Assembly (NCBI RefSeq): GCF_001270745.1
Contig: NZ_KQ434755.1
Coordinates: 62,001 to 126,000 of the forward strand
DNA length: 64,000 bases
Direction: 5' to 3'
Origin: Jiangella muralis
GTDB lineage: Bacteria; Actinomycetota; Actinomycetes; Jiangellales; Jiangellaceae
This document shows, in pieces, positions 19,928 through 31,661 of the stretch; within the stretch, counting starts at the first letter, position 1; each line of letters opens with the position of its first letter. The notes below the pieces were generated by a model. That model was not told the DNA's origin. It saw only the letters and a program-made list of their open reading frames with translations, and ran no database searches. The translations under genes were made by a program, and so were the position numbers.

Positions 19928-21046
19928 TTGAGTGCCGTCGACCTCCCCGGCCTGGTGGCCGGCATCGAGAAGGACGCCGAGGAGTACCTCTCCACCCGCG
20001 ACGAGGCCACGCTGATGATCGGCCTGTCCGTGCGGGGTGAGCGTCAGGTTCGCAGCTACCGGTCGCCGGGCGCCGAGCAGGCCCGGCTGCCCGACGCCGA
20101 CACCATCTACGAGATCGGATCCGTGTCCAAGGTCTTCTCGACCACGGTCCTGGCCGCGCTGGATGCCCAGGGGCTGATCGCCCTGGACGACCCGATCGCC
20201 GCGCACCTCCCGAAGGAGCTCCGGCTTCCGGAGCACATCGCGTCGATCACGATCGAGCAGCTCGCGACGCACAGCTCCGGGCTCGGCTCCGTCGGGGCGA
20301 TCCACCAGGCGTTCATCGACGAGGAGCTGCGGGGCACCGAGCCGCCGTTCGCGACGTCCACCCACTACCTGCGCTACAAGAAGGAACACCTCTACGCCGA
20401 CCTCGAGACCGCCGAGCTGGTCTACCCCACCGGACAGGGTTGGACCTACTCGGTCATCGGCATGGGCACGCTCGGCCACATCCTGGAGCTGGTGGCCGGC
20501 AAGCCGTACGAGGAACTCCTGAAGGAGACGGTCTGTGCGCCGCTGGGGCTCACGGACACCGGCTACACGCTCTCCCCGGAGCAGCAGGGCCGGGTGATGC
20601 ACGCCTACGACGCCACCGGACAGCCGTGCCCGAACTGGTACCACGACGTCATGCTCCCGCAGGGCGGGCTGCGCTCGACCATGACCGACCTGCTCACGTT
20701 CGTGGAGGCCAACCTCGCGGCCGGCGCCGAGGACGACGGGCCGGTCCTGTCCCGGGCCATGCGACGCGCCCGTGAGCAGTACTTCGCCGTGCCCGGCGGG
20801 TTCACCATGCCCGACGGGAGCGACGCGCCCGACTTCGTCCAAGGGCTGGGCTGGCGCGGGCTGGAGCACCCGGAGGGCCTGGCCTGGTGGCACGGCGGGA
20901 CGACGCTGTTCTACCTCGCGTCCGCCGGCGTCGACGACCGCGCCGGCGTCGGCATCGCCACGGTGTACTCCGGCCGCCGCGCTCTCGTCGAGCGCGACGA
21001 GCTGCATGCCCTCGAGCGGGAGTGGTTCCTCCGGGCCTGTCAGTAA
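19928..21046 (+). CDS. Beta-lactamase-fold serine hydrolase (class C-like / D-aminopeptidase type)
   Basis: A 372-residue cytosolic serine hydrolase of the penicillin-binding/beta-lactamase family. The SxxK motif is SVSK in EIGSVSKVFSTT near residue 65. The KTG-equivalent is HGG in WWHGGTTLF. The usual YxN Tyr motif reads YSV in WTYSVIGMG, so the Asn is missing. The TTG at 19928 is chosen because GGAAGGA precedes it by seven bases and the protein then starts just before a conserved helix; the frame stays open to 19835, so a longer form is possible. Family members include esterases, D-aminopeptidases and peptidase-like enzymes. It leads a plus-strand operon with two DPP-IV-like peptidases and a DUF885 protein, which favours a peptide-related role. 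Confidence 0.85.
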   Translation: MSAVDLPGLVAGIEKDAEEYLSTRDEATLMIGLSVRGERQVRSYRSPGAEQARLPDADTIYEIGSVSKVFSTTVLAALDAQGLIALDDPIAAHLPKELRLPEHIASITIEQLATHSSGLGSVGAIHQAFIDEELRGTEPPFATSTHYLRYKKEHLYADLETAELVYPTGQGWTYSVIGMGTLGHILELVAGKPYEELLKETVCAPLGLTDTGYTLSPEQQGRVMHAYDATGQPCPNWYHDVMLPQGGLRSTMTDLLTFVEANLAAGAEDDGPVLSRAMRRAREQYFAVPGGFTMPDGSDAPDFVQGLGWRGLEHPEGLAWWHGGTTLFYLASAGVDDRAGVGIATVYSGRRALVERDELHALEREWFLRACQ

Positions 21047-21072
21047 CCGACCCTTCTCCCCGAGGAGTTGTT

Positions 21073-23340
21073 GTGACGACGACCGATCTGCGAGCACGGT
21101 ACGCCACCGCCGAAGGGCTCTTGCCGCACCACCTCCGAGGGCTGATCACGTCGCCCCAGGTGCAGCCGGGCTGGATCCACGGCGCGGAGACGTTCTGGTA
21201 CCGGAACGTCACGGGCGACGGGGTCGAGTTCGTCCTCGTCGAGGCGGAGACCGGGTGCAGGCGGCCGGCGTTCGACCACGTGCGGCTGGCCGCCGCGCTC
21301 GGCGGCGTGCTGGGGGAGGAGACGGACCCGAAGGCGCTGCCGTTCTCCTCGATCGAGCCGCGTGACGGCGCGGTGCGGGTGGCCGTCGGGGAGCAGCTGA
21401 TCGAGATCTCCCTCGACACCTACGAGGCGACGATCCTCGGCCCGGTCCGGATGGGTGAGGCACCGTCCCCCGACGGGCGCTGGGCGGTGTTCCAGCGCGA
21501 CCACGACCTCCATCTCCGCGACACCGTCACGGGCACGGAGCGGCGGCTCACCACCGACGGGGTGGAGGCGTACGCCTACGGCGGAACGAACGACCAGGTC
21601 GCGGGCTTGGTGATGCAGGAGAACCTCGGTATCACCCCGCCGCCGCAGGTGGTCTGGTCGCCGGACTCGACCAGGTTCGTCACACACCGGCTGGACCAGC
21701 GCGGCCTCGACCTCATGCACCTCGTCCGGTCCGCGCCCTTCGACGGCGGCCGCCCGAAGCTGCTGTCCTACCGCTACGGGCTCCCGGGCGACGAGGACCT
21801 CCCGACCGCGGAGTTCTTCGTGTTCGACGCGGCCACCGGCGAGTCGGTCCAGGCGAAGTGCGAGCCGATCTTCATGCCGTTCGTGCCGGCGATCACCTAC
21901 GGCTGGGTGTGGTGGAGCGAGGACGGGTCCGCCGTCCACTGGCTCGCCAACGACCGCGGTGACCACAACGTCGCCCTCTCCCGGCTCGATCCGGACAACG
22001 GCGAGGTGAGCGTGCTGGTCGAGGAGAGCAGCAGCTCGCAGATCCTCTACGGCCCGCAGCAGATGGACCGCAACGTCCGCACGCTCTCGACGGGCGAGGT
22101 GCTGTGGTGGTCGCAGCGCTCCGGCTGGGGGCACCTCTACCTCTACGGCGCCGACGGGACGGTCAGCGCGCTCACCTCGGGCGACTGGCTGGTGCGCGAC
22201 GTCGTCGCCGTCGACGAGGACGCCCGCCGGGTCGTGTTCACCGGCGCCGGGCGCGAGCCGGGGTCGGACCCATACCTGCGGGAGCTGTACTCGGTGTCGC
22301 TGGACGGCGGCGAGCTCACGGCCATCACCTCCGACGGCCTCGACCACGACCCGCGGCCGTCGCCCTCCGGTAGGTACTTCGTCGATGTCGCCACCCGCTG
22401 GGACGTTCCGGCGGTGTCGGTCCTGCGCGACCGCTCCGGCGCCGTAGTGCTCGAGTTGGAACGGGCCGACGCCTCCGCGCTCTACGCGACCGGCTGGGCC
22501 GCGCCGGAACGTGCCGTGGTGAGGGCCGCGGACGGCGAGACCGACCTCTACTGCGCGGTCTACCGGCCCTTCGACTTCGACCCGGCCGGGAGCTACCCCG
22601 TTCTCGACTGCGTCTACCCAGGGCCGCAGCTGTCGTGCGCGCCGCTGCGCTTCCCGCTGTCCGGCGGGCCGAACATCGGCGCGGCGATGGCGTTCAACGT
22701 CCCGGAGACCTTCGCCGCGCTCGGGTTCGTCGTGGTGATCACGGACGGGCGGGGCAGCGCCATGCGCTCCCGGGCCTTCCAGGACCAGGCCCGGGTGGCC
22801 GGCGGCACCGCCTTCGTCGACGACCACGTCACCGCGATCGAGCAGCTCGCGCGGACCCGTCCGTGGATGGACCTGGACCGCGTCGGGATCTACGGGTACT
22901 CGGCGGGCGGGTACGCGTCGGCCCGGGCGCTGCTGCAGGCGCCGGACTTCTACAAGGTCGCGGTGTCGTCGGGCGGCAACCACGACAACCGGATCAACCA
23001 CTCCTGGTGGGGCGAGAAGTACTTCGGCCTGACGGACGACTTCGACTTCGCCGCGCAGGCGAACGAGTCGCTGGCCGAGAACCTCGCGGGCTGGCTGCTG
23101 CTGGTGCACGGCGAGATGGACGACAACGCCACGCCGCACGGCACGATGCGTCTGGTCGACGCGCTCATCAAGGCGAACAAGGACTTCGACCTGCTCATCG
23201 TGCCCAACGCCGACCACCACATGATGGTGAACCGGGCGTACTTCCTGCGCCGCCGGTGGGACTACTTCGTGCGGCACCTGATGGGCGCGACGCCGCCGCC
23301 TTACCGCGTCGAGGACATCCCGATCGAGGTGTACCGGTGA
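21073..23340 (+). CDS. DPP-IV-like S9 peptidase, copy 2 of 3
   Basis: A 755-residue paralogue of the gene ending at 11260. The N-terminal propeller shares VMQENLG and WSPDSTRFVTHRLDQR. The hydrolase triad is Ser610 (GYSAGG), Asp683 (GEMDDNATPH) and His715 (NADHHM). Its nucleophile elbow (YGYSAGGY) is nearer the classical DPP-IV form than those of the other two copies. The GTG start follows GAGGAG by five bases. It lies 26 bases after the serine hydrolase stop. It is predicted to be a cytosolic dipeptidyl-peptidase, with proline or alanine at P1 as the family preference. Presence of three divergent copies suggests divided specificity. Confidence 0.92.
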   Translation: MTTTDLRARYATAEGLLPHHLRGLITSPQVQPGWIHGAETFWYRNVTGDGVEFVLVEAETGCRRPAFDHVRLAAALGGVLGEETDPKALPFSSIEPRDGAVRVAVGEQLIEISLDTYEATILGPVRMGEAPSPDGRWAVFQRDHDLHLRDTVTGTERRLTTDGVEAYAYGGTNDQVAGLVMQENLGITPPPQVVWSPDSTRFVTHRLDQRGLDLMHLVRSAPFDGGRPKLLSYRYGLPGDEDLPTAEFFVFDAATGESVQAKCEPIFMPFVPAITYGWVWWSEDGSAVHWLANDRGDHNVALSRLDPDNGEVSVLVEESSSSQILYGPQQMDRNVRTLSTGEVLWWSQRSGWGHLYLYGADGTVSALTSGDWLVRDVVAVDEDARRVVFTGAGREPGSDPYLRELYSVSLDGGELTAITSDGLDHDPRPSPSGRYFVDVATRWDVPAVSVLRDRSGAVVLELERADASALYATGWAAPERAVVRAADGETDLYCAVYRPFDFDPAGSYPVLDCVYPGPQLSCAPLRFPLSGGPNIGAAMAFNVPETFAALGFVVVITDGRGSAMRSRAFQDQARVAGGTAFVDDHVTAIEQLARTRPWMDLDRVGIYGYSAGGYASARALLQAPDFYKVAVSSGGNHDNRINHSWWGEKYFGLTDDFDFAAQANESLAENLAGWLLLVHGEMDDNATPHGTMRLVDALIKANKDFDLLIVPNADHHMMVNRAYFLRRRWDYFVRHLMGATPPPYRVEDIPIEVYR

Positions 23341-23366
23341 TCGGGGTCCGGACCGGAGAGGACGCC

Positions 23367-25634
23367 ATGACCACCGATATCGCCGCGCGCTACGCCAAGG
23401 CCGAGGCCCTGCTCGCCCACAACCTGAAGAAGCTGATCCACTCCCCGCAGGTCATGCCGCAGTGGATCCGGGACACCGAGACGTTCTGGTACCGGAACCC
23501 GACGGCCGAGGGTGTGCGGTTCGTGGTCGTGGACGCCGAGGCCGGTACGAAGGAGCCCGCGTTCGATCACGAGCGGCTCGCGGCGGCGCTCGGCGGCCTG
23601 CTCGGCGAGGAGTTCGACCCGGCCGAGCTCCCGTTCCACGGGATCGAGTTCGCCGGCGGCGCGGTGCGCGTCGTCGTCGAGGAACAGCGGGTCCAGGTCT
23701 CGCTGGACGACTACACCGCCACGATCCTCGGACCCGCGCACCCGTCCGAGACGGCGTCGCCGGACGGGCGCTCGGCGGTGGGGCTGCGCGACCACAACCT
23801 CTACCTGCGCGACCTGGCCACGGACGAGGAACGGCAGCTGACGACGGACGGAACGGAGGCGTTCTCGTACGGGACGCCGCCGGACGCCAGCGCGAACCGC
23901 GTGATGCAGGAGAACCTGGGCATCACCGCGGCGCCGCTGGTCGTGTGGTCGCCGGACTCGACGCGGTTCCTCACGCACCGGCTCGACCAGCGCGACCTCG
24001 AGCTGATGCATCTCGTGCGGTCCGCGCCGAAGGACGGCGGCCGCCCGAAGGCGATGACCTACCGCTACGCGATGGTGGGCGACGAGCACGTCGCTACCGC
24101 CGAGTTCTTCGTCTTCGACGCCGCCACCGGGCAGGTGACCCAGGCCAAGGGCGACCCCGTCCCGATGGACTACGTGTCGGCGATCGCGCTGGGACACGCG
24201 TGGTGGGGCGACGACGGCACGAAGGCCTACTGGTTGTCGGTGAACCGCGGCGGCCGCACGGCCCGGCTGCACGAGCTGGACCCGTCGACCGGCGAGGTCG
24301 CGGTGCTCCAGGAGGAGTCCAGCGACACCAACGTCCTGCACGGGCCGCAGTTCTACGATCGCAACGTCAAGGTCCTGGACTCCGGCGAGGTGCTCTGGTG
24401 GTCCGAGCGCAGCGGCTGGGGGCACCTCTACCTGTACGCCCCGGACGGCTCGGTCCGCGCCGTCACCGAGGGCGACTGGCTGGTCCGCGCGATCGTGAGC
24501 GTCGACCAGCGGGCCCGGCGGGTCGTGTTCACGGCGGCGGGCCGCGGGACCGGCGCGGACCCGTACCTGCAGGAGCTGTACTCGGTGTCGCTCGACGGGG
24601 GCGACATCACGGCCATCACCGCCGACGGTCTCGACCACGACCCGCGGCCGTCGCGGTCCGGCCGGTTCTTCGTCGACGTCACCTCGCGGGTGGACGTCCC
24701 GGCCGTCTCGGTGCTGCGCGACTCGGCCGGCGCCGTCGTGCTGGAGCTCGAGCGGGCCGACGGGTCCGGCCTGTACGCGGCCGGCTGGACGCCCGCCGAG
24801 CGCGTGGTCGTCAAGGCGGCCGACGGCGTGACGGACCTGCACTGCGCGATCTACAAGCCGCACGACTTCGACCCGTCGGCGACGTACCCCGTGCTGGACG
24901 AGATCTACCCGGGGCCGCAGGTCTCCACCGCGCCGCTGCGCTTCCCGCTGTCCGGCGGCACCATGACGGCCGAACGGCACGCGGCCACCTACGCCGCCCT
25001 CGGGTTCGTCGTCGTGGCCGTCGACGCGCGGGGGACCGCGATGCGTGACCGGGCCTTCCAGGACCACGCGCGCCTGGGCGGCGGGGAGTTCGCCGACGAC
25101 CACGCCGCGGCGATCCGCGAGCTGGCACAGACCCGCCCCTGGATGGACCTGGAGCGCGTCGGCACCTACGGCCACTCCGGCGGCGGCTACGCGTCGACGC
25201 GGTGCCTGCTGCTGGCCCCGGACCTGTTCAAGGTCGCGGTGTCGTCCGCGGGCGACCACGACGACCGCATCTACCACGCCTGGTGGGGCGAGCGGTTCTT
25301 CGGCCTCACCGACGAGTTCGACTTCGGCCCGCACTCCAACGTCGGGCTGGCCGGCAACCTCGAGGGCAAGCTCCTGCTGGCGCACGGCGGCATGGACGAC
25401 AACGTCACACCACACCTGACGCTGCGGCTGGTGGACGCGCTCATCGACGCCGGCAAGGACTTCGACCTGCTGATCGTCCCGAACGCCGACCACCGGATGT
25501 TCCATCAGCAGGCGTACTGGCTGCGCCGCCGCTGGGACTATTTCGTGCGCCACCTGATGGGCGAGACGCCACCGGCCTACCGCATCGCCGACATCCCCGC
25601 CGACCCCGAGCTGCTCGCCACGTACGGAGGCTGA
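23367..25634 (+). CDS. DPP-IV-like S9 peptidase, copy 3 of 3
   Basis: A 755-residue paralogue immediately downstream of copy 2. The triad is Ser604 (GHSGGGY), Asp677 (GGMDDNVTPH) and His709 (NADHRM). The ATG has GGAGAGG upstream. In the catalytic half it looks closer to the copy at 9 kb (shared GHSGGG and AGDHDD-type segments) than to its neighbour. The three copies therefore probably arose by more than one duplication rather than a single recent tandem event. The protein is predicted to be cytosolic. The DUF885 gene follows six bases after the stop. Confidence 0.92.
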   Translation: MTTDIAARYAKAEALLAHNLKKLIHSPQVMPQWIRDTETFWYRNPTAEGVRFVVVDAEAGTKEPAFDHERLAAALGGLLGEEFDPAELPFHGIEFAGGAVRVVVEEQRVQVSLDDYTATILGPAHPSETASPDGRSAVGLRDHNLYLRDLATDEERQLTTDGTEAFSYGTPPDASANRVMQENLGITAAPLVVWSPDSTRFLTHRLDQRDLELMHLVRSAPKDGGRPKAMTYRYAMVGDEHVATAEFFVFDAATGQVTQAKGDPVPMDYVSAIALGHAWWGDDGTKAYWLSVNRGGRTARLHELDPSTGEVAVLQEESSDTNVLHGPQFYDRNVKVLDSGEVLWWSERSGWGHLYLYAPDGSVRAVTEGDWLVRAIVSVDQRARRVVFTAAGRGTGADPYLQELYSVSLDGGDITAITADGLDHDPRPSRSGRFFVDVTSRVDVPAVSVLRDSAGAVVLELERADGSGLYAAGWTPAERVVVKAADGVTDLHCAIYKPHDFDPSATYPVLDEIYPGPQVSTAPLRFPLSGGTMTAERHAATYAALGFVVVAVDARGTAMRDRAFQDHARLGGGEFADDHAAAIRELAQTRPWMDLERVGTYGHSGGGYASTRCLLLAPDLFKVAVSSAGDHDDRIYHAWWGERFFGLTDEFDFGPHSNVGLAGNLEGKLLLAHGGMDDNVTPHLTLRLVDALIDAGKDFDLLIVPNADHRMFHQQAYWLRRRWDYFVRHLMGETPPAYRIADIPADPELLATYGG

Positions 25635-25640
25635 AACGTC

Positions 25641-27398
25641 ATGACGCAGGACACCGAGAGGGCCGGCTCGATCGCCCGCCTCGCCGACGACTACCTGGAG
25701 ACCACCAGCTCCGCCAACCCGTTCACCGCCTCCGTCTTCGGCGTTCCCGGGTACGACGACCGAGTCCCCGACCTCGGCGAGGCGGCCGAACTGGCCGCCG
25801 GCGAACGGCTGCTGGACCTGGCGGCACAAGCCGAGGCGATCCCCGCCGACGGCCTCGGCGACGACGACCGTGTCACCCGCGATGTGCTGATCCACTCGGC
25901 CCGCTCGGAGGCGGCTCCACTGGTGGACCGGCACCTGGAGTTCACGGTCTCCGGGCATGCCGGGCCCGTGGCGGGCGTGCTGGCCACCCTGGCGTACACC
26001 AGCCTGCGCACCCCGCAGAGCGAACGCGACTACCTGAGCCGGATGACGGGGATCCGGGCGTACGTGGACGGCATCACGGTGCGCGCATCGGCGGGCGTGG
26101 CGTCCGGGCGCGTGCCCACCCGCCGCGGAGTCGAGCAGACGATCGAGCGGGTGCGCGCCTACCTCGCCACGCCCGCCGACGCCGACCTGATGGTGGCGCC
26201 CGCCGCGGGCACCGGCGTCGAGGACGACGTCCGCGCTCTCGTCACCGACAGCATCCGCCCGGCGTTCACGGCGCTGCTGGAGACGCTGTCCGGCCCGGTG
26301 CTGGCGGCGGCCCGCCCGGACGAGCGCAGCGGGCTGCTGCACCTGCCGGACGGCGGCGAGATGTACGCGCGCGCCGTCGCGGCACACACCACGACGTCGC
26401 GGACGCCGGAGGAGCTGCATCGGCTCGGGCTGGACCTGTGCGCGCAGCTGCGCGAGGAGTTCTCCGAGCTGGGGCAGAAGGTGTTCGGCATCAGCGACTT
26501 CGACACGCTCGTCGAGAAGCTGCGCACCGATCCGGCCCTGCGCTACGCGTCGGCCGAGGACATCGTCGCCGACGCGCGGGCGGCGGTGGCCCGGGCGGAG
26601 GCGGCGCTGCCCCGCTGGTTCGGCCGCATCCCGTCGGCGGACTGCGTGGTCGAGCCGATGAACGCGGTAGTCGCGCCCGCGGCGGTGATCGGGGAGTACA
26701 TGCCGCCGGCCGGGGGACGGCCCGGCCAGTACAACGTCAACACGTACCAGCCGTGGACCCGAACCCGGTTCGAGTACGAGACGCTGGCGTTCCACGAGGG
26801 CGTGCCCGGCCACCACCTGCAGTTCGCCGCCGCCCAGGAACTCACCCGGCTGCCGGCGTTCCGCCGCTACCACTACATCGCCGCCTTCGGCGAGGGGTGG
26901 GGCCTCTACGCCGAGCGGCTGGCCGACGAGATGGGGCTGTACTCGGACGACCTGTTCCGCTTCGGCATGCTGTCGTGCGATGCGTGGCGGGCCTGCCGCC
27001 TGGTTGTCGACACCGGCCTGCACCACCAGGGCTGGACGCGTCAGCAGGCGATCGACTTCATGCTCGCCAACAGCGCCGTCTCGCCGCCGAACGTCGTCAA
27101 CGAGGTGGACCGGTACATCGCCTGGCCCGGCCAGGCGCTGGCCTACATGACCGGCCGGCTGGAGATCGACGCGCTGCGCCGGGCCGCCCGCGAGCGCCTC
27201 GGTGCCGGCGTCGACATCCGCGCCTTCCACGACGCCGTCCTGGGCAACGGTGCCGTCCCCCTGGCCGTCCTGTCCACCGAGATCCACCGCTGGATCGGCA
27301 ACCAGACGCGAACGAACAGCCCTGGCGAGATTGTCGGTGGGTGGACCGGCGCTGCCAGACCACTCCGAGACGGTTCGGCGCACCGCTCGGGCAGCTAA
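25641..27398 (+). CDS. DUF885 family protein, probable metallopeptidase
   Basis: A 585-residue DUF885 protein. The HEGVPGHHLQ motif near residue 390 resembles the zinc site of gluzincin-like peptidases, with a downstream Glu in FGEGWGLYAE as the likely third ligand. The C-terminal helix VDRYIAWPGQALAYM is characteristic of the family. Members of DUF885 are generally regarded as metallopeptidases, but few have been tested. The ATG lies six bases after the previous stop with GGAGG upstream. No signal peptide is seen. As the last gene of a peptidase operon it probably helps to finish peptide hydrolysis. Confidence 0.88.
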   Translation: MTQDTERAGSIARLADDYLETTSSANPFTASVFGVPGYDDRVPDLGEAAELAAGERLLDLAAQAEAIPADGLGDDDRVTRDVLIHSARSEAAPLVDRHLEFTVSGHAGPVAGVLATLAYTSLRTPQSERDYLSRMTGIRAYVDGITVRASAGVASGRVPTRRGVEQTIERVRAYLATPADADLMVAPAAGTGVEDDVRALVTDSIRPAFTALLETLSGPVLAAARPDERSGLLHLPDGGEMYARAVAAHTTTSRTPEELHRLGLDLCAQLREEFSELGQKVFGISDFDTLVEKLRTDPALRYASAEDIVADARAAVARAEAALPRWFGRIPSADCVVEPMNAVVAPAAVIGEYMPPAGGRPGQYNVNTYQPWTRTRFEYETLAFHEGVPGHHLQFAAAQELTRLPAFRRYHYIAAFGEGWGLYAERLADEMGLYSDDLFRFGMLSCDAWRACRLVVDTGLHHQGWTRQQAIDFMLANSAVSPPNVVNEVDRYIAWPGQALAYMTGRLEIDALRRAARERLGAGVDIRAFHDAVLGNGAVPLAVLSTEIHRWIGNQTRTNSPGEIVGGWTGAARPLRDGSAHRSGS

Positions 27399-27474
27399 GA
27401 GTCTCCCCTGGTTGGCCGTAAAGTGGTGCGATAGATAGGTCAATTGTCGTGCTAATCTGATGTGTTCAACGGCG

Positions 27475-27488
27475 GGCGGTCAACCGCC
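27475..27488. promoter_or_regulatory. Inverted repeat upstream of the CobK-like gene
   Basis: GGCGGT-CA-ACCGCC is a perfect six-base inverted repeat 16 bases before the ATG at 27505. It could be an operator or a leader hairpin. The upstream 70 bases are noticeably AT-richer than the genes around them, which fits a promoter, but no clear -35/-10 pair stands out. Confidence 0.3.
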
Positions 27489-27504
27489 GGGCCGGGAGTT
27501 GGGC

Positions 27505-28284
27505 ATGGCGACTCTGATCATCGGATCGACCACGTTGGTCACAGACCTGGTGATGGCATTCGAATACGGAGACCCGGACTACGTCCGGCTGGTGACTGAG
27601 GACAAGCCTGGCCGTGGCGAAGGGATCGTGTACGACGCTCACCCCGAGCCGACCGCGTTGGTGACGATGTTCCAGAGATATGCGGTGGACATGGTGATCA
27701 ACGCCGCAGAGCCCTATGCAGAGGACATGTCCGCTGCGGTGGCGGCTGCCTGCGACGTTGCCGGGCTACCGCTTCTCCGTGCGGTGCCACCGCCGTTCGA
27801 CGACGTTGCGGGATCTCCGCGGTGGAGGTGGGTGGCCTCGTTCGACGCAGCCGTGCGCGAGGCATCGCGACACCCGGGCGACGTCATGATCGCGCTGGAA
27901 CCGCTGCATCTCACGGCGCGGCTGGGCGACCTGGGCGGGCGATCGGCCATCAGCCACCGCAGACGGACCTCCATGGACCCTCAACTCCCTGGCTGGGTGC
28001 GGCAACCGGACGCCACTCGATACGGGCTTCGGGGAGCGATTTCCGTCATGGGCGCCGGGAACGTGCGTCTGCTGGTCGCGGCCGATTCCGGTGACACCGG
28101 TGTCAGGAACTTCCTGGAGGCCGCCGACCATCTCGGCATCGAGGTGATCATCGTTCGGAGACCGGAGCTGTCGAGCGGCCTCCATCGGCGCAGCGGGCCG
28201 GCCGGGCCCGTAGTGACCGACGCCTTGTCCGCTCTGGCCTGGCTTAGCGACGTACGAAGGCGCTCGGCCCAGCGTCGTTGCTGA
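27505..28284 (+). CDS. Divergent precorrin-6A reductase (CobK/CbiJ)-like protein
   Basis: A 259-residue protein with the layout of CobK, the NADPH-dependent reductase of aerobic cobalamin synthesis. The N-terminus TLIIGSTTLV corresponds to the Rossmann GGTxEA segment. INAAEPYAEDMSAAVAAAC corresponds to the conserved DATHPFA helix block. PRWRWVASFDAAVREA matches the GDRWxxV region. SGDTGVRNFLEAADHLGIE then IIVRRP match the C-terminal KNSGGxGT...VMVxRP block. Several key family residues are changed: GGT to GST, THPFA to AEPYA and KNSGG to ADSGD. No other cobalamin gene is present in the window. It may be a pathway enzyme displaced from its cluster or a homologue with a new role. The ATG is the first start that begins with the Rossmann strand. 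Confidence 0.7.
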   Translation: MATLIIGSTTLVTDLVMAFEYGDPDYVRLVTEDKPGRGEGIVYDAHPEPTALVTMFQRYAVDMVINAAEPYAEDMSAAVAAACDVAGLPLLRAVPPPFDDVAGSPRWRWVASFDAAVREASRHPGDVMIALEPLHLTARLGDLGGRSAISHRRRTSMDPQLPGWVRQPDATRYGLRGAISVMGAGNVRLLVAADSGDTGVRNFLEAADHLGIEVIIVRRPELSSGLHRRSGPAGPVVTDALSALAWLSDVRRRSAQRRC

Positions 28285-28567
28285 ATCCTGCTCTCGGCAC
28301 AAATGTCCGCCGCGTGGCCGGCTTCGTGCGTGGGCACGATGAACGCCGGCGACGGGATGTTCCAGCCGCCGGCCGTCGTCACTACCGCGAGCAGGGCGCC
28401 GCTGCCGTCGACTTCTTCACCCGGGTCACATCCGTCTACGTCGGACACGACTGAGCACGCCCACGAGCCCATCCCGGGGCACCCGGGAGCCGGCGTCTCG
28501 TCCCCGGCCCACCGGAGCCACCCGGTCGCGCTGCTGCCGGGGCCGGAGATCCGGGTGGGGGTCGACT
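28285..28567. other. Intergenic stretch between convergent genes
   Basis: About 280 bases without a convincing gene. A short plus-strand frame (GTG 28314 to stop 28454, 46 codons) ends in a protein-like segment, YREQGAAAVDFFTRV, with no recognisable start context. It could be a remnant of a lost gene. No clear terminator or promoter was found. Confidence 0.5.
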
Positions 28568-29554
28568 TCACGCACCGCCGGCGTCGCGTGATCCTTCGTG
28601 ATCATAGGTTGCTGTAGGGACCGCGAGCCCGGCGGCGCCGGGGGCGGACGCCGTCGCTCCCGTGTGGTGCCGAGCGAGGAGGTCCAGTCCGAGCCGCGCC
28701 CGGCGCACGCGTTCGCGGCTCAGCGCGACGGCAGTGGCCTCGAGATGGGTGCCGGACGGGTACACGTCGGGCGCGTTGCGCAACCCGAACTTCACGTGCA
28801 CGGGTGCGGCGACGGTGATGATGCGGCCGATCTCGTGGTGCCGGACGAACCCGCCGATGTTGTCGGGCGCCTCGACGTAGACGTCCAGGGGCACGGACAC
28901 GGCGGCGCGGATCGCGGCCAGCTGCGGCAGCGTCAGGTCGGTCGGCACGTTGATGGTGTCGGCGCCGAGATCCTCCAGGACCCGCGCCGTCGCCGGGTTC
29001 GACGCGGGCAGCATGACCGACGTCTTGGCCTGCATGTCCGGAGGCAGGTCGCCGGACGAACGCAGCCGGCCGAATACCGACAGCACGCCGAGGTCGGCGA
29101 TGAGCACGCTGCGGAAGCCATGCTCGGCGGCCCGCACGATCTCGTCGACGACGGCGGCCACCTGGTCCTGGCCGTGCGCGGTCGGCGCGACGGCCGCGCC
29201 CGCGGCAGCACGCGCCATCGCCGACGTCCCCCAGCCGGCGCACGGCCGGGCGAACAGGCTGACCTCCACGGCGGCAGCGGCGGCCGTCGCGGCCATCCGA
29301 TCCAGCTCGTCGGCGGTGAGCAGCCCGACGCCGGTGCCCTGGGAGATCCGGGTGACCGGGACGTCCAGCTCGCGGGCCACCTCGAGGACGGCGTCGAGGC
29401 AGGCCGGGCCCTCGACGCTGGGGATCTCGACGCGGTACTCGGCGCCGTCGGGGAACCGCAACTGCGACGCCGGCAGGTCGTACGCGTCCGAACCCGGCAG
29501 CCCGACGCGGGCCAGCAGCGCCGCCGGGTCCGGAGCGGTGCGCGCGGCGGTCAC
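28568..29554 (-). CDS. U32-peptidase-like TIM-barrel protein of uncertain function
   Basis: A 328-residue protein. The central part looks like the U32 (collagenase-like) TIM-barrel fold: HGFRSVLIADLGVLSVFG, then VLEDLGADTINVPTDLTLPQ. This resembles the segment in which U32 proteins place a short beta-strand before a conserved Glu. VDEIVRAAEHG and VPLDVYVEAPDNIGG are other recognisable blocks. Clear Cys residues of the classical U32 iron-sulphur motif are not seen. The ATG overlaps the stop of the enolase-superfamily gene, so the two proteins probably act in one pathway. The fold call is moderate and no reaction is assigned. Confidence 0.5.
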   Translation of the reverse strand: MTAARTAPDPAALLARVGLPGSDAYDLPASQLRFPDGAEYRVEIPSVEGPACLDAVLEVARELDVPVTRISQGTGVGLLTADELDRMAATAAAAAVEVSLFARPCAGWGTSAMARAAAGAAVAPTAHGQDQVAAVVDEIVRAAEHGFRSVLIADLGVLSVFGRLRSSGDLPPDMQAKTSVMLPASNPATARVLEDLGADTINVPTDLTLPQLAAIRAAVSVPLDVYVEAPDNIGGFVRHHEIGRIITVAAPVHVKFGLRNAPDVYPSGTHLEATAVALSRERVRRARLGLDLLARHHTGATASAPGAAGLAVPTATYDHEGSRDAGGA

Positions 29555-30720
29555 GACGACACCGCCGACAGCGAGTCGCGCCGCTCCCAGCCCTCACGCA
29601 TGAGGTTGAAGTGGACGTGGGTGCGCGGATGCTCGGCGCACGCGTCGTGGTCGAGCCGGACGCCGAGCCCGGGCGCCGTCGGCAGCGCGAAGGCGCCGTC
29701 GGAGGCGTCGACCGACGGCGCCCCCGTCACCAGGCCGGCCACCCACGGGTCGGCGAAGTCGTTGAAGTGTTCGAGCACCTTGAGTCCGGGAGCGGCGGCC
29801 GCGAAGTGCACGTTCGCGGCGGTGCCGACCGGGCCGCAGACGTTGTGCGGCGCGAGCTGCAGGTTGTACGCCTCGGCCCAGCCGGCCAGCTTGCGCAGCC
29901 CGGTGAACCCGCCGATGTGGGTGAGATCGGCCTGAATGACGTCGACCAGCCCGCCGGTGATCAGCTCGCGGAACTCCGGCACGCTGTGCACCCGCTCGCC
30001 GGTCGCGATCGGCGCCGTCGTGGCCGCCCGGACTTGACGGAGTCCGGCGACGTCGTGCGGCGGGACCGGCTCCTCCAGCCACGCGGGATCGAGTGGCGTC
30101 AGCGCCGCGGCGACCCGGGCCGCGGTGGCCGCGGTGAACCGTCCGTGCATCTCGATCATCAGCGCGACGTCGGGCCCGACGGCGTCGCGGACGGCGCCGA
30201 CGATCGCGACGGCGCGCCGCAGCTCGGACGGCGACAGCTCGGCCGTCGCCGCGCCGAACGGGTCGATCTTCAGGCCGCGGTACCCGCGCGCGACGACGGC
30301 GCGCGCGAGCGAGGCGATTTCCTCCGGGTCGCGGCCGCCCTGGTACCAGCCGTTGGCGTACGCCGGAATCCGGGAACGCATCGTGCCGCCGAGCAGCCGG
30401 TGCACCGGCACTCCGAGCGCCTGGCCCATGAGGTCGTGGTATGCCATGTCGAGCGTGGCCAGCGCCGTGGCAGTGACCTCGCCGACGCGGCCGTACTCCT
30501 CCCACGTCAGCTGCCAGGCCAGCTTCTCGACGTCGAACGGGTCGGACCCGATGACGTAGCGGCGGGACAGTTCGGCGATGCAGGCCAGCAGCGTGTCGGT
30601 CTTGTTGAGCATGCGCGCCTCGCCCAGCCCGACGCGGCCGTCGTCGGTGATGACCTCGACGAACGTCAGCTCGCGCCAGGGCGTCCCGACGACGGTGGTG
30701 CGGACTTCACTGATCTTCAC
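29551..30720 (-). CDS. Mandelate racemase/muconate lactonizing enzyme family protein (acid-sugar dehydratase-like)
   Basis: A 389-residue enolase-superfamily enzyme. The N-terminal capping domain runs to about residue 125 (MKISEVRTTVV, then WEEYGRVGEV). The barrel shows LKIDPFG, IEMHGRF, WLEEPVPP, IATGERV and APHNVCGP. The His in MHGRF and the His in APHN sit where galactonate-dehydratase-type enzymes keep their catalytic histidines. The first metal ligand position is Glu (IEMHG) rather than the usual Asp. The likely reaction is dehydration of a sugar acid. It is encoded between the GntR gene and the U32-like gene, opposite a sugar importer and a beta-L-arabinofuranosidase, which suggests an arabinose-related or other plant-sugar acid as substrate. 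Confidence 0.88.
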   Translation of the reverse strand: MKISEVRTTVVGTPWRELTFVEVITDDGRVGLGEARMLNKTDTLLACIAELSRRYVIGSDPFDVEKLAWQLTWEEYGRVGEVTATALATLDMAYHDLMGQALGVPVHRLLGGTMRSRIPAYANGWYQGGRDPEEIASLARAVVARGYRGLKIDPFGAATAELSPSELRRAVAIVGAVRDAVGPDVALMIEMHGRFTAATAARVAAALTPLDPAWLEEPVPPHDVAGLRQVRAATTAPIATGERVHSVPEFRELITGGLVDVIQADLTHIGGFTGLRKLAGWAEAYNLQLAPHNVCGPVGTAANVHFAAAAPGLKVLEHFNDFADPWVAGLVTGAPSVDASDGAFALPTAPGLGVRLDHDACAEHPRTHVHFNLMREGWERRDSLSAVSS

Positions 30721-30735
30721 GCGTGCTCCTGTCGG

Positions 30736-31488
30736 TCATTCGGGGTGCGTGGTGCCGGCCGCGAGATCCGGCGGCCGTGACAGCGCGGTGCGCAGGTCGT
30801 GGCGGGTGTGGACGAGGTGCGAGCGCATGGCCGCGGCGGCTGCCTCGGGGTCGCGGGCGCGGACGGCGTCGAGGATGGCGCGGTGCTCGGCGAGGAGGTC
30901 GTCGATGGCCTTGCCGCGCACGAGGTAGGCGCGCAGGCTCTTCAGCCGGCTGCTGTGCAGCGGCTCTTCCATGCCCTCGACCAGGAAGCTGAGCATCTGG
31001 TTGCCGCTGGCGGCTGCGACGGCCGCGTGGAACCGGACGTCGGCGAGGTTCAGCGCCTCCTCGTCCTCGGCCCGGTACATGCTCTCCAGGCTCAGCTCCA
31101 GCGCGGTGACGTCGGTGCGGCTGGCGTTGGTGGCGGCCAGCAGCGCGGCGTGCACCTCGATGGCCATGCGGACCTCGAGGAGGTCGAGCAGCGTACGCGG
31201 GTCGCGGCGCAGCGCGGCGGTGAAGAATCCGCTGACGGGCGCTGCGTTGGGGAACGCGACGGTCGGGCGGCGGCCCTGCCTGATCTCCAGCAGGCCGCGG
31301 GCGCTGAGGTTGCGCACCGCTTCGCGTACGGTCAGCCGGCTGATGCCCAGCTGGCCCGCGAGCTCCGCCTCCGACGGCAGGGCCGCGCCGGGCTGCACCT
31401 CGCCGGCGAAGATCAGGTCCTCGAGATGCCGGACCGCTCGATCGGTCAACGGCTCGGACCGGCCGTCGCCGTCCTGACTGCTCGTCAC
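30736..31488 (-). CDS. GntR-family transcriptional regulator (FadR subfamily)
   Basis: A 250-residue FCD-type regulator. The winged helix is near residues 15-80, with AELAGQLGISRLTVREAVRNL as the helix-turn-helix. The C-terminal all-helical FCD domain includes LEVRMAIEV, DVRFHAAV and HRAILDAV, the usual positions of metal-binding Asp and His residues. GTG at 31488 is chosen because GCGGAGAG lies about eight bases upstream; the frame is open further (GTG at 31503 and 31512). It is the first gene of a minus-strand operon and faces the sugar importer operon. It probably controls both through the shared 230-base region, where two palindromic elements are seen. Confidence 0.9.
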   Translation of the reverse strand: MTSSQDGDGRSEPLTDRAVRHLEDLIFAGEVQPGAALPSEAELAGQLGISRLTVREAVRNLSARGLLEIRQGRRPTVAFPNAAPVSGFFTAALRRDPRTLLDLLEVRMAIEVHAALLAATNASRTDVTALELSLESMYRAEDEEALNLADVRFHAAVAAASGNQMLSFLVEGMEEPLHSSRLKSLRAYLVRGKAIDDLLAEHRAILDAVRARDPEAAAAAMRSHLVHTRHDLRTALSRPPDLAAGTTHPE

Positions 31489-31517
31489 TGTGCTCTCCGC
31501 CACGGACGTCACTATGG

Positions 31518-31527
31518 CAGATATCTG
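31518..31527. promoter_or_regulatory. Palindromic operator candidate upstream of the GntR gene
   Basis: CAGATATCTG is a perfect ten-base palindrome 30 bases upstream of the chosen GntR start. The flanking ATCTGAT recurs at 31632-31638 in the same intergenic region, near the sugar importer promoter. It is a candidate autoregulatory site. Confidence 0.35.
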
Positions 31528-31661
31528 ATGAGCTTCCAAGACCATGTGGCGAAGATTCGCCGTCGAGCTGCACGTTAGGGGGGAACTGGGCGGCAGCGGG
31601 TCACACTGTCGGCACAAGCTCTTGCTAACTCATCTGATAGGTGTCATGGTGTCCCGCAGAT

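Follow-up and report, generated by a model that had tools for sequence, protein, structure and literature searches.

A CobK derivative confined to one genus has probably left precorrin-6A reduction for another role

Introduction

What does a CobK-like protein do in a genome that lacks key genes for making the corrin ring? To our knowledge, CobK serves just one step of B12 synthesis, and it can be used as a marker of that synthesis. The window, i.e., the whole stretch of 64,000 nucleotides that was analyzed, contains an open reading frame that a sequence-only reading had described as a lone, CobK-like protein with altered core motifs, perhaps repurposed. Comparing this protein (hereafter "the variant") with ordinary CobKs, we conclude that it is likely a genus-restricted CobK derivative that no longer reduces precorrin-6A and has been kept for another job. 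The gene and its main features are:

27505 to 28284, + strand: the variant (P0001), a CobK/CbiJ-derived protein; intact open reading frame of 259 amino acids
27494 to 27498, + strand: GGGAG, a putative ribosome-binding site preceding the ATG at 27505
27640 to 27651, + strand: HPEP motif, residues 46 to 49, at the position of the GGFGG NADPH loop of CobK; in all four orthologs
27706 to 27720, + strand: AEPYA, residues 68 to 72, which replaces THPFA; His73 of the solved CobK becomes Glu or Asp
28078 to 28095, + strand: AADSGD, residues 192 to 197, which replaces TKDSGG; Lys196 of the solved CobK is gone

Results

The variant is a divergent homolog of CobK

The description of the protein as CobK-like was borne out by three comparisons that rule out chance similarity: The Pfam model PF02571 (CbiJ) matched the variant with 67.3 bits (cut-off, 28.6), the solved Rhodobacter capsulatus CobK (4x7g) matched it with E = 1e-9, and a profile-profile alignment (hhalign) gave a probability of 99.2 over 232 columns. 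Six NCBIfam models of precorrin-6A reductase also matched the variant, but every score lay below its cut-off, with 36.5 versus 129.85 for TIGR00715, 71.9 versus 231 for NF005968, and 22.8 to 36.0 versus 245 to 431 for the remaining four. Its identity to ordinary CobKs was 21 to 31%; among themselves, ordinary CobKs share at least 44% (median, 55%). Matches to alkaline phosphatase (E from 0.0028 to 0.88) were rejected as chance, the best reaching only E = 0.13 with a profile, and an ATPgrasp_N match stayed below threshold (E = 0.019; 16 versus 27 bits).

A longer in-frame start at 27460 would extend the variant to 274 amino acids. We regard 27505 as the likelier start, since GGGAG ends 6 bases before its ATG and since, in the copy of one related species (G003), a 2-base gap interrupts the stretch from one start to the other; GGGAG is identical in all four species that carry the variant. 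A promoter and terminator scan of 27380 to 28560 returned a single promoter-like site, on the opposite strand and within the variant gene. An antisense gene was considered and rejected: The 178–amino acid frame at 27766 to 28302 gave no sign of being a gene. One antisense frame had 4 to 5 stops and 82 to 85% identity between species (82 to 88% in the sense frame), another had 7 to 10 stops, and another had 1 stop and 71 to 78% identity.

Residues that hold NADPH and the tetrapyrrole are replaced

According to the structural account of CobK (PMC4663756), main-chain amides of Phe50-Gly51-Gly52 hold the 2'-phosphate of NADPH, His73 packs against the nicotinamide, a closing loop spans approximately Ala32 to Thr35, and the C-terminal domain contacts the tetrapyrrole carboxylates through basic residues that are conserved. 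We took Lys136, Arg153, Arg173, Lys196, and Lys206 as the set of five basic residues in Table 2 of that account. Residues of the solved protein were mapped via Paracoccus CobK, with numbering offset by one, and compared with 33 ordinary CobKs, among them one identical pair, in a set that excluded the altered CobK of G003.

All 33 ordinary CobKs carry Phe50, Gly51, Gly52, His73, Arg153, Arg173, Lys196, and Lys206, and Arg at site 136. The three intact variants instead have His, Pro, and Glu at sites 50, 51, and 52, Glu or Asp at 73, and Pro, His, Ala, Ala, and Phe at 136, 153, 173, 196, and 206. The broken copy in G003 covers sites 50 to 52, 73, 136, and 153 and has the same residues there, so that the change of FGG to HPE and the acidic residue at site 73 are found in four of four variants versus none of the 33 ordinary CobKs; it was the sequence-only reading that had proposed a search for shared variant motifs. 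The alignment between variant and CobK is firm at sites 50 to 52, 73, 136, 196, and 206 and unsure at 34, 153, and 173, and the first 50 residues of the variant align poorly. Arg residues lie one to three positions from sites 153 and 173, and one alternative alignment pairs an Arg with 153. At least three of the five tetrapyrrole-binding basic residues (136, 196, and 206) are thus gone. As for the three motif swaps reported earlier, all are real, namely GST for GGT, AEPYA for THPFA, and AADSGD, for which ordinary actinobacterial CobKs read TKDSGG or near it. The list was short, however: SLAGR and GGFGG are also absent, and GRQ has become EPL.

The window's genome lacks key corrin genes

The genome of the window (G000; 7.27 Mb in 76 contigs, completeness 100) contains no CbiC and no CbiE/CobL match over cut-off, the better of two subthreshold matches reaching 29.8 versus 92.9 bits. 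Because of these absences, G000 should not make a corrin ring. The claim that the variant occurs without cobalamin genes therefore holds for these key markers. The variant is also the sole Pfam CbiJ match in G000, which answers the earlier question of a second, canonical cobK in the genome. Being the only CobK does not, here, indicate cobalamin synthesis, since other steps of the pathway are missing. Domains that bind B12 were found in all five genomes tested, with five matches in G000, and a genome that has such domains and would make no corrin ring probably takes up external B12 for its use.

CbiC is present in only 2 of the 12 genomes of the genus (G008 and G010; neither G000 nor G004 has it), and CbiE exceeds its cut-off in the same two, which are also the two with an intact normal CobK. 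In the sister species G010, the variant (C1:3202456) coexists with a normal CobK, which lies on the same contig (C1:4625576). As a separate observation, the corrin genes of G003 are decaying, with CbiC missing and both the ordinary cobK and the variant damaged. These two genes account for the damaged loci at C1:4336936-4337670 (L054 and L043) and C1:4402112-4402755 (L052); within the normal CobK, an internal stretch flanked by sound ends has ceased to look like CobK.

The variant is restricted to one genus

Across the genus, the variant was found in 4 of 12 genomes, intact in G000, G004, and G010 and broken in G003; a raw tally of five also counts G008, where the match is to a normal CobK. G008 has the upstream DUF885 gene as an ortholog at 87% identity, and its contig stops 102 bases past the DUF885 match, at the spot where the variant would lie. 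The other seven genomes hold DUF885 relatives at 48 to 49% identity only (E ≤ 1e-100). No variant was found outside the genus in its family (22 genomes including the genus, E ≤ 1e-20). In the class sample, 14 of 393 genomes matched at E ≤ 1e-16, 4 with the variant and 10 with proteins having all CobK motifs. The family of the nearest CobKs (that of G180) gave 5 matches in 297 genomes, all ordinary CobKs, and the single match among the 396 genomes of the phylum sample (E ≤ 1e-22) was that of the window itself. These samples overlap, and only six or eight candidates were scored per genome. Every reported match outside the genus coincides with a place called ordinary CobK, and intermediates between CobK and variant, sought in the family, class, and phylum samples, were absent. 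Named genome contigs, a set that may omit the genome of the window and those closest to it, held no relative, nor did viral contigs; phages gave no match, and plasmids gave four matching records, all from Paracoccus yeei and annotated as cobalt-precorrin-6A reductase. The notion of a repurposed CobK family was thus not upheld in the samples searched: The variant is an orphan of 4 of the 12 genomes of one genus.

A maximum likelihood tree was built from 37 rows, of which 36 were distinct. It gathers the variants into a single clade, carried on a branch of 5.98 changes per site and nested in ordinary actinobacterial CobKs beside genus g72 (enclosing group, 98/97; last node, 94/69). The best tree grouping the variants with Paracoccus was 7.8 log units worse and was not rejected (AU p = 0.193). 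In the maximum likelihood tree, the variants thus fall inside the normal CobK clade, which by the sequence-only reading's own standard speaks against repurposing, but only halfway, as they do so at the end of a branch of about six changes per site, with a deep placement not rejected. As this branch is saturated, we treat the placement only as a lead.

By DUF885 distances, G004 and G010 are narrowly each other's nearest relatives within the genus, and the protein tree, whose root lies on a very long branch, pairs G000 with G010 instead (98/86). The corrin genes tested are absent from G000 and G004 and present in G010, and we infer for the order of events that, under either grouping, there were two losses of the pathway or G010 reacquired it. 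Separately, the ordinary CobKs of G008 and G010 (L041 and L042) cluster with family f26 (G184, 99/92) and not with CobKs from their own family (L022 to L027 and L037), which hints that cob genes may have been gained horizontally in the genus.

Neighboring genes include peptide and sugar genes

Ten neighbors of the variant were scanned with Pfam, and none is a corrin gene, in line with the earlier description of a gene standing alone beside peptide and sugar genes. One side holds parts of an oligopeptide-type ABC transporter (SBP_bac_5 and a permease) and a β-lactamase–family hydrolase, followed by the genes that lead up to the variant:

21040 to 25634, + strand: two tandem S9/DPP-IV-type peptidase genes; the start is approximate, and G003 has one gene here
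25641 to 27398, + strand: DUF885 protein, the conserved upstream neighbor (Pfam and cross-species comparison)

On the other side lie a gene with weak similarity to U32 peptidases, one of the enolase superfamily, a GntR/FCD regulator, and a solute-binding gene of the sugar type. In all four species, the same DUF885 gene precedes the variant, which sits at the edge of a shared block; immediately beyond it, the stretches compared (G003, G004, and G010) no longer resemble the window. The first three genes on that other side (28571 to 31617, − strand) form a likely operon in G000 and are unmatched by the sequence that follows the variant in the other three species. The position beside an oligopeptide-type transporter and peptidases is suggestive, and only that, of a role for the variant.

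A further observation concerns the second S9/DPP-IV gene of G000 (23361 to 25634, + strand), which differs from its counterparts in G004, G010, and G003 by dS of 0.44 to 0.50; the adjacent DUF885 gene is much closer between species (dS of 0.13 to 0.21). We hypothesize a replacement, a conversion, or the loss of a copy.

The variant is under purifying selection between three species

The variant is under purifying selection between the three species with intact copies. Pairwise differences at codon positions 1, 2, and 3 numbered 27/18/59, 25/19/50, and 19/14/45, and NG86 dN/dS was 0.309, 0.399, and 0.291. Nonsynonymous changes made up 27 of 54 on the G000 branch and 17 of 39 on the G004 branch (neutral means, 39.9 and 28.9), both below all 2000 neutral simulations, which used set values (GC of 0.72 and transition bias of 2). 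On the G010 branch, 16 of 29 were nonsynonymous (simulated mean, 21.3; minimum, 12; binomial p = 0.03), a result that is not clear. The constraint is looser than on the neighboring DUF885 gene (dN/dS of 0.179 to 0.200, i.e., about half that of the variant), yet within the range of its other neighbors: The two S9 genes gave 0.255 to 0.319 and 0.274 to 0.503 among G000, G004, and G010. G003 has one S9 gene rather than two, so one of its S9 comparisons is with a paralog. The G003 variant itself has gained one base near its start, has lost 107 bases, and has gained another 4 bases, and the gene is therefore dispensable at least in that species.

A possible acidic cleft

The likeliest reading is a CobK paralog that has left the corrin pathway and been repurposed in one genus. 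In the mechanism proposed for it, the two-domain CobK fold, made of two strand-swapped Rossmann-like domains with a ligand cleft between them, would persist; the CobK cleft, which is basic and grips a polycarboxylate, would have become acidic through Glu32, Glu48, Glu or Asp69, Glu or Asp132, and Asp197, together with His46, and would bind a cationic small molecule or a metal without NADPH, the cationic ligand perhaps being tied to the adjoining peptide-uptake and peptidase genes. Asp194 of the variant is common to ordinary CobKs. At the six basic sites (34, 136, 153, 173, 196, and 206), the net charge is +6 in all 33 CobKs and −1 in all three variants; over all cleft sites as defined here, CobKs average +2.6 (−1 to +6) and the variants have −5, −3, and −3. 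The whole protein, however, is also more acidic (−3, −7, and −9 versus an ordinary-CobK mean of 0.1), which weakens the argument from the cleft. Conservation of the cleft did not exceed that of the rest, either among the intact variants (45 of 54 versus 148 of 192 sites, p = 0.21) or with the G003 remnant added (20 of 34 versus 69 of 117, p = 0.59), and a single-sequence AlphaFold2 model had a mean pLDDT of 38.5, too poor for a fold search. We thus regard binding of a cationic ligand as a rather doubtful proposal. An equally speculative history would have CobK duplicated or acquired in the ancestor of a few actinobacteria and rebuilt with an acidic, NADPH-free, cation-binding cleft to work outside tetrapyrrole chemistry, so that it survived in two lineages that lost the B12 pathway.

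Discussion

Could the variant still be a working, if unusual, precorrin-6A or cobalt-precorrin-6A reductase? It exceeds the Pfam CbiJ cut-off and is the sole such match in its genome. That genome, however, has neither CbiC nor CbiE over cut-off, the NADPH loop, His73, and sites 136, 196, and 206 are lost, the scores fall under the NCBIfam cut-offs, and G010 keeps a normal CobK alongside. A reductase is accordingly very improbable, and the variant is almost certainly not one that acts on precorrin-6A. It might instead handle a corrinoid or another tetrapyrrole without reducing it, e.g., in salvage of external B12, given that the ancestral CobK bound a corrin precursor, that all five genomes tested have B12-binding domains, and that G000, unable to make B12, probably uses it nonetheless. 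We consider such handling quite unlikely, as the basic residues gripping the carboxylates are mostly lost and none of the ten neighbors serves B12 salvage or transport, the transporters there being of oligopeptide and sugar type.

A more serious competitor, although still an improbable one, is a fading relic of CobK, functionless and kept open by chance or by weak residual constraint. The broken G003 ortholog, a dN/dS about twice that of DUF885, and the failure to find the gene in 8 of 12 genomes of the genus (one with its contig ending at the spot) all fit this explanation. Against it stand three intact, full-length copies beyond a branch of about six changes per site, over which an unselected frame would not be expected to last, the nonsynonymous counts below every neutral simulation on two of three branches, and the excess of differences at third codon positions. 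The absence of key corrin genes, the purifying selection, and the coexistence with a normal CobK in G010 make a role other than precorrin-6A reduction likely, much as the sequence-only reading had suggested, and a selected, different function is what we consider quite probable.

As the variant exceeds the Pfam threshold in genomes without CbiC and CobL, calling the pathway from Pfam alone misleads here. A new function, if found, would be an instance of the CobK fold beyond corrin synthesis; in the literature covered, which was mostly open access and included PMC4663756 and PMC7242693, we found no report of one.

The nearest ordinary CobKs are those of genus g72, family f17 (G125, G180, G458, and G478), which form the nearest tree branch and the best matches outside the window's genus (E from 3.6e-28 to 6.7e-25) and, unlike the variant, carry the full CobK motifs. 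Overall, the variant resembles CobK/CbiJ (PF02571; R. capsulatus PDB 4x7g, 5c4n, and 5c4r) in being homologous across nearly its whole length and in retaining Pro and Ala within the THPFA turn, the DSG turn, a strand resembling VIIVRRP, and an A-x-x-W close to the C terminus. It differs from CobK in that the NADPH loop, His73, and the majority of the contacts to the tetrapyrrole are missing, and its genome has neither CbiC nor CobL.
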